From IMG/VR virus record IMGVR_UViG_3300035698_020838, positions 1-43,171 of that record: a stretch of DNA of 43,171 nucleotides. One strand, 5' to 3'. The notes beneath the pieces are model-generated. The model was not told the origin of the DNA, did not search any database, and saw only the letters and a program-made list of their open reading frames with translations. The DNA is from a virus. Positions 4,821-22,251 of this stretch are shown in pieces (positions within the stretch are counted from its first letter, which is position 1; each line of letters begins with the position of its first letter). The translations under genes were made by a program, and so were the position numbers.

Positions 4821-5046
4821 CCTTCAAACCTCCTCTAAACCTTTTAATCTTAGAATAAACAATTTTATCCTTAAACTTAGATTCCAAAAACTTAACTTTT
4901 TTATTAGCCAAACGCAAACGCATAAGCAACAAACGAACCTCACCCCTATAATCATAAATCAAATTACTTTGATAACTAATACAACCCTTAGAACTAACCA
5001 ACTTTAAAACTAACTCCTTCTTAGACAAACCCTTTAATGAAACCAT
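4813..5046 (-). CDS. Hypothetical 77-residue basic protein
   Basis: I use the ATG at 5046, with GGAGG 13 nt and AAAGGTT 4 nt upstream; the longer TTG start would overlap that site. The protein is Lys/Leu-rich (GLSKKELVLKLV, RLRLANKKVKFLESKF) and could bind nucleic acid. It is first in the microgene run. Family not recognised. Confidence 0.65.
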   Translation of the reverse strand: MVSLKGLSKKELVLKLVSSKGCISYQSNLIYDYRGEVRLLLMRLRLANKKVKFLESKFKDKIVYSKIKRFRGGLKDV

Positions 5047-5078
5047 TTTAACCTTTAAACCTCCTAACAAATACTAAT

Positions 5079-5100
5079 AAAAAAATATAACAAAAAAAAA
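5079..5100 (-). terminator. Double T-tract terminator
   Basis: Two runs of A on the plus strand (7 and 9 long) give T-tracts downstream of the leftward 215-residue gene. The stretch also contains TTTATA on the minus strand and may hold the promoter of the next unit. Confidence 0.45.
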
Positions 5101-5120
5101 TATAAATTAATTATTGCTTT

Positions 5121-5170
5121 GAAACAATATAAACATTTATTTTAAAGAAACAATATAAACATTTATTTTA
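5121..5170. repeat. 24-bp tandem direct repeat with 2-bp spacer
   Basis: The same 24 bases occupy 5121-5144 and 5147-5170. One copy codes for the last residues of the 215-residue protein and the other lies mostly in its 3' untranslated region. A recent slippage duplication that moved the stop codon is a simple explanation. Confidence 0.85.
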
Positions 5171-5784
5171 TAGTTTAACGTGACAGGCTTAATAGTATTA
5201 GTATCAGACACACAACGCATTTTTAAACCTACACCTAGACAAATACCTTCGTGAGAACTAACACCCACACCACCCTCAAAATGAGGGATTAAACCATCGC
5301 CAGAACCATAACCAAGTAAAGTACGATTATCTTTGTTTATACTTTTATTCTTCTTAGAATACAACAACTTCAAAACAGATAAATCACTATTCAAAGCTTC
5401 AGCCGTAGCAGTAGAAAGCTTACAATAACCACAACCACCAATCGAAGAACCAACAAAACCATAATTAGTAGAAGCAGTAGGATTCATACCCCCCATATAA
5501 GATTTCTTCCACTCAACAGTGATTATTAACTCTCGACCTTTACCGAAATCATCGGCTTTTTCAACTAAGTCTATTTGAGCCAGATCTTCACTAATCCTTT
5601 TATCTTGGCATTTCTCAAAGTGTTTAATCAACTTAGTTTTTTGTTGGTCAGCAGTTCCTTTATACTGCTTTCCTTCCCACTCTAAACACTTAACTAAATC
5701 ATCGTTCATCTTATTAATGTTACTTCTGAACGCTTCACTATGTTTTTTTATTACTGCTATTCGCAGATTCTTAAATTCAACCAT
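5137..5784 (-). CDS. Conserved-looking hypothetical protein, 215 residues
   Basis: ATG at 5784 with GAGGT 7 nt upstream. The N-terminal half is charged and helical. The C-terminal half holds a Gly/Ser-rich section with SSIGGCGYCKLSTATAEALN and LGYGSGDGLIPHFEGGVG. Similar GGCGY-K-x-S-x-A-x-A-x-AL-N stretches occur in uncharacterised phage and bacterial proteins as I recall, so this may be a shared unknown domain. The last residues lie in a tandem repeat. Third positions move from A-ending to T-ending codons along the gene. Confidence 0.7.
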   Translation of the reverse strand: MVEFKNLRIAVIKKHSEAFRSNINKMNDDLVKCLEWEGKQYKGTADQQKTKLIKHFEKCQDKRISEDLAQIDLVEKADDFGKGRELIITVEWKKSYMGGMNPTASTNYGFVGSSIGGCGYCKLSTATAEALNSDLSVLKLLYSKKNKSINKDNRTLLGYGSGDGLIPHFEGGVGVSSHEGICLGVGLKMRCVSDTNTIKPVTLNYKINVYIVSLK

Positions 5785-5785
5785 T

Positions 5786-5854
5786 TTATACCTCGTTTAA
5801 TTTTTTAAGCAACCTTTTATTTAAAGCGTTTATTTGTTCTTGTGTTATGTTCAT
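5786..5854 (-). CDS. 22-residue micropeptide
   Basis: The ATG at 5854 follows GAGGTTGAAAA, a strong site, although that site lies within the preceding gene. The peptide (MNITQEQINALNKRLLKKLN) is one amphipathic helix, and its end carries the site for the 215-residue gene. It overlaps the preceding gene by 38 nt in another frame. Confidence 0.4.
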   Translation of the reverse strand: MNITQEQINALNKRLLKKLNEV

Positions 5855-6035
5855 TTTTCAACCTCACTATAAACCTATAAACCTTTTCCGCGAAAACCAT
5901 AAATTCGTCGCTAACAAGTTTAATAAATTCCGCTTCTAAGCTGGACCGGTTTTCTGAAATCCAAATATGTAAAGGTTCCCGCCTTATTTCGTCGCGCTCT
6001 TCTTGCATCAATTCGTTTTTTCTTTCTTGATCCAT
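5817..6035 (-). CDS. Hypothetical 72-residue charged protein
   Basis: ATG at 6035 with AGAGGTT 7 nt upstream. Highly charged helix (ERKNELMQEERDEIRREP), then an aromatic segment (EFMVFAEKVYRFIVRL). No motif recognised. Its 3' end overlaps a 22-codon ORF that has its own ribosome binding site. Confidence 0.65.
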   Translation of the reverse strand: MDQERKNELMQEERDEIRREPLHIWISENRSSLEAEFIKLVSDEFMVFAEKVYRFIVRLKNEHNTRTNKRFK

Positions 6036-20120: not shown

Positions 20121-20132
20121 AAGTATTTATAA
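20121..20132 (+). promoter_or_regulatory. Capsid promoter candidate (TATA box with purine-rich BRE)
   Basis: TATTTATAA at 20124-20132 is preceded by CGAAAAG, a fair BRE. The start would fall near 20154, giving a short leader with AGGTGAT (20161-20167). A separate promoter for the capsid gene would fit its high expression need. Confidence 0.5.
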
Positions 20133-20175
20133 TTGCACACATATATGAATACTGCTTAGTAGGTGATACACTATC

Positions 20176-22251
20176 ATAAACAAGAAAAAACCAGTGATTA
20201 AAAGTAAAGAAAAATTATTCTCAAAGATAAGTGGTTATGAAACTAAAGAAAGCGATTCTGACTTAATAAAAGGAGGCTACATAGCAACAACCCACCTTGA
20301 CAGTGGATGGTATGATTACCAACGAGAAACATGGGTTAAAGATCAGATAGCTTATGAAACACTAGTTAATTGGGCTGAAGAAATAAATTCAGGCAACCCA
20401 AGAACAAACAAGGTAAGCGTAAATCATGAGCGAGAACCACACGTGACAGGCGTAGCAGTTAAAGGCTCAGCCAGAGTAGATAATCTTAGTGACGGAGAAT
20501 ACGGTTTATACACCGACACACTCATAGATAAAACTAAAGAATCATTTGAAGACGTATCATACAGGATAGATAAAGGCTTACTAGACTCATACTCAATCGA
20601 GTTCGACACAGGATTTCATTCTGACAGTGGGTACTATGAAGGTGCAGTGATAGAAAAAGAGATTGATAGTGGTCTTATCAGGACTTTACTACCAGGAACA
20701 CACTTAGAAGGTTACACTTTAGCTGCTCAACCAATGAACGAACACGCAATCATGATTAAAGAAATCACTACTAACAAAAAAGTTTTATGTTCAAACAATA
20801 ATTTGAAAATCAAGGAGGTCAAAACAATGACTGACAAAGAAGTAAAAGAAGAGGCTCCTGAAGAGCCAGTTGAAGAGGTTAAAGAACCTGAAGCAACACC
20901 AGCACCAGAACCAGTTGTGGAAGAAGAAAAACTATCTTCAGATGATAAAGCTTTGCTGAAAGAGTTCAAAGATATGAGGGCTAAAGAAGCAAAAGAAAAA
21001 GAGTACAAAGAGATTACTAAGAGAGTAACCACTGAGTTAAAAGAATCTTTAAAAGATGTTAAAGTCGAAACAAAAGTTAAAGTTACACCTGACAAAGTAG
21101 AAATCAAAGAAATCTCAGAGTTCAAAGAAGCACTAGCAAAAGATAGTGTTGATAAACAATTCTCTATGGCTGGAAAAGTCTCAGATAAACTTGGCTTGAC
21201 AGGCGAAGGTTTCGTTAAAGAAACAAAAGTTGCAGAGGCAAGACAATACAAAAACTTTTCTACTAATGGAACAAAGTTAGAGTATAAAGGACTTGGAATT
21301 ACAACCAACCAAAACAGTGATACAGATTACTTGTTATCAGGTGCTGAGTTAAGTGACGTGTTTGATCCAGTAATATATTCTTTGCTTAACCAGAAAACTA
21401 ATACTTGGAATATCTTGGTGAAAGATGATTTTAGTGGTAAAGGAAACAACCAAGTTCAATTCACTGCTAAGATTGCTGCTAACACAACTGCACGTGCTTA
21501 TACAGGTAACGCAGTTAGCACAGGTAATGTTGGAAGACTAAAATACATGACTAAGTTTAAGAAGTATCAAGTCGGTGTTGAAGTTGATGGAGACATGATT
21601 GCTGCTGCAAGAGGAGGTCCAATAGGTGACGTTTTCGCTCAAGAAGTTAAGGATTCAACAGATGATTTAATGGCTGTTATTAACGCAGCATTATTCGGAA
21701 TTGTAGGAGCTGAAACTGCTGCAGGAATAATTGGTTTTCAATACATTTGTGAGAGTGCAACTTATACTAGTTTGTATAATTTGACTAGAAGCACAACTAA
21801 TCTTTTATCACCTGCAAGTGCAGGAGATACATTTATTGATGGTGCAAGTGCAGATGTTAGTATTGCTAATTTAAGAACTGCTATTAGACAACCTATCGAA
21901 GAAGGTGGAGACTTAAACAACTTAGTATTCATTGTAAGTCCAATCCAGTATGATAAAATCAAAGGAATTTATGATGCTGCACAGAGACTTATACCTACAA
22001 GTGCAAGGTTTGGATTTGAAGGTCGAATGGAGTTTGATGGAGTACCTATATTTTATGATAAAGATTGCAACGATGACGATATATTCTTGGTCGATTTGGA
22101 AACACATAGAGTAGCTGTCTGGGTTCCTCCAACATTAGAAATGCTTGGAAAAGACGCTGATAGTCAGAAAGGGTTTATTAAAACTTATTTCGCTACATAC
22201 AACCGAGCTCCAAGAAGAATGGTTCAAATACATAGTAATGCAACTAGTTAA
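20176..22251 (+). CDS. Fused prohead protease - scaffold - HK97-fold major capsid protein
   Basis: From GTG 20194 the protein has 685 residues. Residues 1-190 look like an S78-type prohead protease: VNHEREPHVTG (His78) and DSYSIEF (Ser132/134). Residues about 212-350 are an acidic/basic helical scaffold-like domain (EEAPEEPVEEVKEPEATP). Residues about 355-685 are the capsid subunit. AGGTGAT sits 26 nt before the GTG but only 8 nt before an in-frame ATA at 20176, so I list the longer start as possible. An internal ATG (residue 212) has a perfect ribosome binding site. The protease would cut off the scaffold during shell maturation. Confidence 0.87.
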   Translation: MNKKKPVIKSKEKLFSKISGYETKESDSDLIKGGYIATTHLDSGWYDYQRETWVKDQIAYETLVNWAEEINSGNPRTNKVSVNHEREPHVTGVAVKGSARVDNLSDGEYGLYTDTLIDKTKESFEDVSYRIDKGLLDSYSIEFDTGFHSDSGYYEGAVIEKEIDSGLIRTLLPGTHLEGYTLAAQPMNEHAIMIKEITTNKKVLCSNNNLKIKEVKTMTDKEVKEEAPEEPVEEVKEPEATPAPEPVVEEEKLSSDDKALLKEFKDMRAKEAKEKEYKEITKRVTTELKESLKDVKVETKVKVTPDKVEIKEISEFKEALAKDSVDKQFSMAGKVSDKLGLTGEGFVKETKVAEARQYKNFSTNGTKLEYKGLGITTNQNSDTDYLLSGAELSDVFDPVIYSLLNQKTNTWNILVKDDFSGKGNNQVQFTAKIAANTTARAYTGNAVSTGNVGRLKYMTKFKKYQVGVEVDGDMIAAARGGPIGDVFAQEVKDSTDDLMAVINAALFGIVGAETAAGIIGFQYICESATYTSLYNLTRSTTNLLSPASAGDTFIDGASADVSIANLRTAIRQPIEEGGDLNNLVFIVSPIQYDKIKGIYDAAQRLIPTSARFGFEGRMEFDGVPIFYDKDCNDDDIFLVDLETHRVAVWVPPTLEMLGKDADSQKGFIKTYFATYNRAPRRMVQIHSNATS
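20813..20829 (+). promoter_or_regulatory. Internal ribosome binding site and ATG inside the protease-capsid fusion
   Basis: AGGAGGTC at 20813-20820 is followed after 6 nt by an in-frame ATG at 20827-20829. This is the best ribosome binding site in the gene and would yield a 474-residue scaffold-capsid protein without the protease, in line with the excess of capsid over protease a virion needs. Confidence 0.7.

Follow-up and report, generated by a model that had tools for sequence, protein, structure and literature searches.

A conserved internal Shine-Dalgarno start at the protease/scaffold junction of a viral gene joining prohead protease, scaffold and capsid suggests two products from one reading frame

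Results

The open reading frame (ORF) at 20194-22251 comes from a 43 kb virus record (the window, meaning the whole stretch of 43,171 nucleotides that was analysed). It opens with GTG, the preceding in-frame stop being at 20164-20166, and encodes a diverged prohead protease of the HK97 family, a charged helical scaffold and a capsid subunit of the SU10/HK97 fold. The features of the locus are as follows.

20126-20133, + strand: TATA-like box TTTATAAT, judging from its sequence a possible archaeal promoter of the gene
20161-20167, + strand: Shine-Dalgarno (SD)-like AGGTGAT, with no ATG, GTG or TTG at normal spacing downstream
20194-22251, + strand: single ORF for protease, scaffold and capsid (685 aa, 76.0 kDa); its start is possibly slightly upstream (ATC 20173 or ATA 20176)
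20263-20757, + strand: prohead protease domain, residues 24-188, a diverged member of the HK97 gp4 / Peptidase_S78 family (profiles and hhalign)
20425-20427, + strand: codon of His78, predicted catalytic, aligning with HK97 gp4 His65
20593-20595, + strand: codon of Ser134, predicted catalytic, aligning with HK97 gp4 Ser114
20813-20819, + strand: internal SD AGGAGGT (sequence, duplex energy and conservation)
20827-20829, + strand: internal in-frame ATG, residue 212; each of the 24 fused contigs has an ATG at the homologous junction, 23 of them behind a ribosome-binding site (RBS)
20827-22251, + strand: predicted major product, a scaffold-capsid precursor (474 aa, 52.2 kDa)
20827-21279, + strand: scaffold (delta-like) region, an acidic linker and then long predicted helices (structure prediction, charge count and alignment)
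21280-22248, + strand: capsid domain, SU10_MCP, HK97 fold (PF17236 and Foldseek)

The order protease, scaffold, capsid within one ORF, first proposed in a sequence-only reading of the locus, holds, the capsid being identified by PF17236 and by fold and the protease through relatives. The capsid part of the ORF matches PF17236 at E 4.5e-8, above the cut-off of that family, and a low-confidence AlphaFold model of the short product (mean pLDDT 51) matched HK97 Head II (E 1.8e-9) and the SU10 capsid (E 6.3e-9) in a Foldseek search of the PDB, with a probability of 1.00 for both; the earlier description of the capsid as HK97-type is therefore right as to fold, whereas the family is SU10_MCP. The proposed protease stands on its relatives and not on the window sequence by itself. 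No protease match to the window protein was obtained in Pfam or NCBIfam, and we assign the family because the relatives are recognised: of the 18 that were aligned, 12 are hit by TIGR01543 (HK97 prohead protease; best E 9e-6) and nine by PF04586 (best 0.0022), the scores lying under the curated cut-offs where shown, and hhalign of the protease region against HK97 gp4 gave E 7.8e-5 with a probability of 61%. His78 and Ser134, which align with what we take to be the catalytic residues of HK97 gp4, are invariant across the 18 relatives. A Foldseek search of the PDB with the AlphaFold model of the protease (pLDDT 75) returned no significant match, and a profile of the protease alignment found no meaningful match among PDB sequences. 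The acidic stretch and long predicted helix between protease and capsid (the helix at residues 38-75 of the short product) are as would be expected for a scaffold.

At the protease/scaffold junction, AGGAGGTC (20813-20820) is followed by 6 nt and then by ATG 20827, which is where the sequence-only reading had placed an internal RBS and start; the register-corrected spacing from AGGAGGT to the ATG is 8 nt. The predicted duplex of this site with the anti-SD has an energy of -11.2 kcal/mol, and none of the remaining in-frame ATGs of the ORF falls below -6.4. SD-led starts are usual in this virus, with 17 of 26 neighbouring starts in the window at -6.5 kcal/mol or lower, and the internal site ranks among the stronger of them; for comparison, the known nested starts of lambda Nu3 and Mu Z are predicted to pair less strongly, at -6.8 and -7.1. 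The predicted mRNA fold around 20813 pairs the SD in part, with the stability of shuffled sequence (z -0.13), and no special RNA structure was found at the internal start (z-scores from -1.3 to +0.8).

When viral contigs were searched with alignments of capsid, protease and portal, 23 were found to have a fused ORF in addition to the window, making 24 in all; among these, the ORFs of L013 and L014 seem identical (judged by shared words) and L023 is truncated at the 3' end. The conservation of the internal ATG and RBS among relatives, which had been proposed as a check of the original claim, is extensive: the junction ATG is present in all 24 contigs, and it is accompanied by an RBS in 22 of the 23 relatives (23 of 24 with the window included). 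Of 22 scored sites, 21 have a register-corrected spacing of 8 nt; the remaining one, AGGTGAT in L011, lies in the same register and has a spacing of 7 nt. In L007 the protease and the scaffold are separated by an inserted DUF6582 domain (PF20223; 4648-5547) flanked by two candidate internal starts, of which the second, after the insertion (position 5548), matches best and was chosen for scoring. A fusion lacking the internal site, the arrangement named beforehand as evidence against two starts, occurs once in the 24, in L058, whose junction ATG (11683) has no SD; L060, its sister in the capsid tree, has AGGAGGT. By eye, ORFs resembling HNH homing endonucleases flank the fused gene of L058 (10478-11092 and 13169-13804).

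A chance SD is ruled out by comparison with other in-frame ATGs and by synonymous reshuffling. Among the first 20 ORFs, 18 of 20 junction ATGs have GGAGG 4-16 nt before them versus none of 278 other in-frame ATGs, and when a site is defined as a run of five or more complementary bases at normal spacing, nine of 283 other in-frame ATGs pass. The residues preceding the methionine vary (KEVKK, SEENH, EENK, SEETK, MEVSD, QEVLT, KEEPT) while the GGAGG core is kept, and what is conserved is therefore the DNA motif; likewise, all 10 Lys-Glu pairs at the junction are encoded as AAGGAG, versus 23 of 310 elsewhere in the same AT-rich ORFs. When synonymous codons were reshuffled under the codon usage of each gene, with the same definition of a site and with junction ATGs picked by homology, 4.2 of 19 lineages were expected to carry a site and 18 were observed to do so (the formal tail probability of ~1e-17 assumes independent lineages, though they are related, and is not to be taken literally).

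Another in-frame methionine within the scaffold ('KMEVKEKVL'), preceded by an SD of varying quality, is seen in one clade (L012 5761, L018 3938, L020 5770 and similar contigs). We considered a second conserved internal start at this position and rejected it: the methionine is common, but SD strength (dG from about -3.3 to -9.6) and spacing vary.

The start of the long product is less distinct. GTG 20194 has no SD, and within usable distance of AGGTGAT 20161-20167 the protease frame offers only ATC 20173 or ATA 20176, so that in the window the start remains uncertain between the GTG and these upstream codons. The absence of an RBS at the GTG favours the idea that the arrangement sets a protease:capsid ratio; an ATC or ATA after the AGGTGAT (window 20161-20176) is a possible non-standard start that would itself hold protease low. 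In most relatives the long start has no good SD, but L021, L007 and L011 have one; as far as sequence can tell, a weak long start is thus frequent without being general. In one clade this start comes 1-17 nt past the portal stop, mostly without an SD, which suggests that ribosomes re-initiate there once they have translated the portal gene; in the other clade it is preceded by a short leader that contains TATA-like boxes, and TTTAAATA-type boxes occur upstream of the fused gene in L006-L009.

The weakness of both upstream candidates, the GTG without an SD and the AGGTGAT without a standard start codon, could also be taken to mean that only the internal start is productive, the upstream region being rarely translated or degenerate and the protease without a role. 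However, neither the histidine nor the serine changes in any of 18 relatives, even at 31% identity to the window, and all 24 contigs keep the frame open; the protease is therefore under selection, and we regard an idle protease as highly improbable.

Two viruses with a separate capsid gene bear on the history of the site. In L059 (2700-4795) the capsid has an ORF apart from that of protease and scaffold; each of the two ORFs is led by a strong SD, and the nested start (GAGGTGA, dG -11.7, aligned spacing 11) is kept. In the cultured archaeal virus psiM2 (L081, NC_001902), ORF12 (4906-5961), annotated as a head maturation protease, contains an ATG at residue 227 behind GAGGTGAT (dG -12.8), likely an unannotated nested scaffold start; its capsid gene, ORF13, is separate, which rules out psiM2 as a cultured example of the protease-capsid fusion. 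On these layouts the nested start goes with the protease/scaffold junction whether or not a capsid is attached, and they suggest that it belongs to the scaffold and survives fusion or fission of the capsid. The capsid tree is poorly resolved, with L059, L079 and L061 on long branches, and the change may have gone in either direction, by fusion or by fission.

The host is probably archaeal, to judge from the TATA-like boxes, a weak match to an MCM-like helicase and a primase-like motif seen by eye. A provirus/host search of bacterial and archaeal genomes with the capsid alignment returned no relative, and tblastn against INPHARED phages gave no match for the window ORF and insignificant matches only for the ORF of L021.

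Discussion

We consider it very likely that the fused gene is translated from two starts, giving a minor fusion that bears the protease and a major scaffold-capsid product that shares its C-terminus. Use of both starts, their ratio, co-assembly and the cleavages are what we infer, start use and ratio from conservation. Under this model a single mRNA would give rise to two proteins with a common C-terminus: the weak start of the long ORF would yield a minor 76 kDa protease-scaffold-capsid fusion, and the strong internal SD with ATG 20827 a major 52 kDa scaffold-capsid precursor. By means of the scaffold and capsid domains that it contains, the fusion would join the procapsid, thereby carrying the protease inside at a low ratio, and at maturation the protease would excise the scaffold and presumably also itself.

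HK97 has 415 capsid subunits versus about 60 proteases, and D3 has about 90 proteases per prohead (PMC12749128); the need for far fewer proteases than shell subunits supports a model with two products. One could instead envision that the full-length fusion alone is made, with the protease cleaving itself away after assembly and the internal site left as a relic of a separate scaffold-capsid gene. Such a protease could process itself, bacterial fusions of a like kind exist, and L058 provides a fusion without the site. However, a relic should decay, whereas this site, with its fixed spacing and biased codons, persists in relatives that have diverged deeply and in which the surrounding protein sequence has changed; in addition, most relatives have no SD at the long start, and a 1:1 ratio of protease to capsid would be unusual beside that of HK97. 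We therefore think it improbable that the fusion is the sole product.

A further route to the short product would be a transcript of its own begun within the protease region, as occurs in herpesviruses, where UL26.5 begins in the middle of UL26 and yields most of the scaffold (PMC12474303); in herpes simplex virus, about 10% of the scaffold derives from the precursor that bears the protease (PMC12474303). No TATA-like box was seen by eye close upstream of the internal SD, and the SD, the element that is conserved, would be required under either model; we hold a separate transcript to be unlikely.

The arrangement had been likened to lambda C/Nu3 with the capsid inside, and the comparison is apt. 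In lambda, initiation at a nested in-frame start releases the scaffold from an ORF that also encodes the protease, and C and Nu3 share a stop; the window has the corresponding in-frame start and RBS at the junction. In contrast, the lambda capsid gene E is separate and its protease is of the S49 family, whereas the window has its capsid within the ORF and a protease of the HK97/S78 type. Among the relatives a separate capsid gene is found only in L059, which has the exact C/Nu3 layout, and a lambda-like layout is also that of ORF12 in the Methanobacterium phage psiM2. The protease gene I of Mu similarly holds a nested start for Z, but its capsid gene, T, is separate, and UL26/UL26.5 of herpesviruses pairs a protease-scaffold with a more abundant C-terminal scaffold product (PMC12474303), but there too the capsid protein has its own gene. 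HK97 gp4/gp5, like D3, shares the type of protease and an HK97-fold capsid with an N-terminal scaffold domain, although in HK97 the protease and the scaffold-capsid are two adjoining genes.

Similar in gene content are the bacterial prohead protease/major capsid fusions (NF045541; plasmid-borne L085-L089), in which an HK97-family protease and an HK97-fold capsid occupy one ORF, but the capsid is of another family (TIGR01554). NF045541 (curated cut-off 525 bits) was not matched in NCBIfam scans of the relatives, the protease ORF of L059 reaching only 15 bits, nor in a six-frame search of the fused records L058, L061, L079 and L040. Four of the five plasmid-borne fusions have a junction ATG with a weak SD-like sequence of the AGGA/GAGG type (dG from -4.0 to -6.2), and the fifth lacks a junction ATG. 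Nested starts are thus possible in these genes as well, and the four (L086, L087, L088 and L089) may indicate that such starts are more general. Protease-capsid fusions (NF045541) and nested protease-scaffold starts (lambda, Mu, herpesviruses) are each already known; for the two combined, a nested start within a protease-capsid fusion, we found no earlier report in the literature searched, which was mainly open-access.

We offer more tentatively, as a possibility that falls a little short of even, the view that the junction SD start is an ancient and portable means by which HK97-fold viruses set the protease:capsid ratio, staying in place as the capsid gene fuses or splits, and that it defines an uncultivated, probably archaeal lineage with a single two-start shell gene. 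Capsid assembly wants few proteases among hundreds of shell subunits, and gene fusion would seem to impose a ratio of 1:1; the conserved nested start shows how viruses with the fused gene can escape it, and it allows the question of the ratio to be tested on a single gene. Where a nested start of this kind is present, the main capsid product will escape gene callers, and the junction SD provides a marker for re-examining the known protease-capsid fusions.
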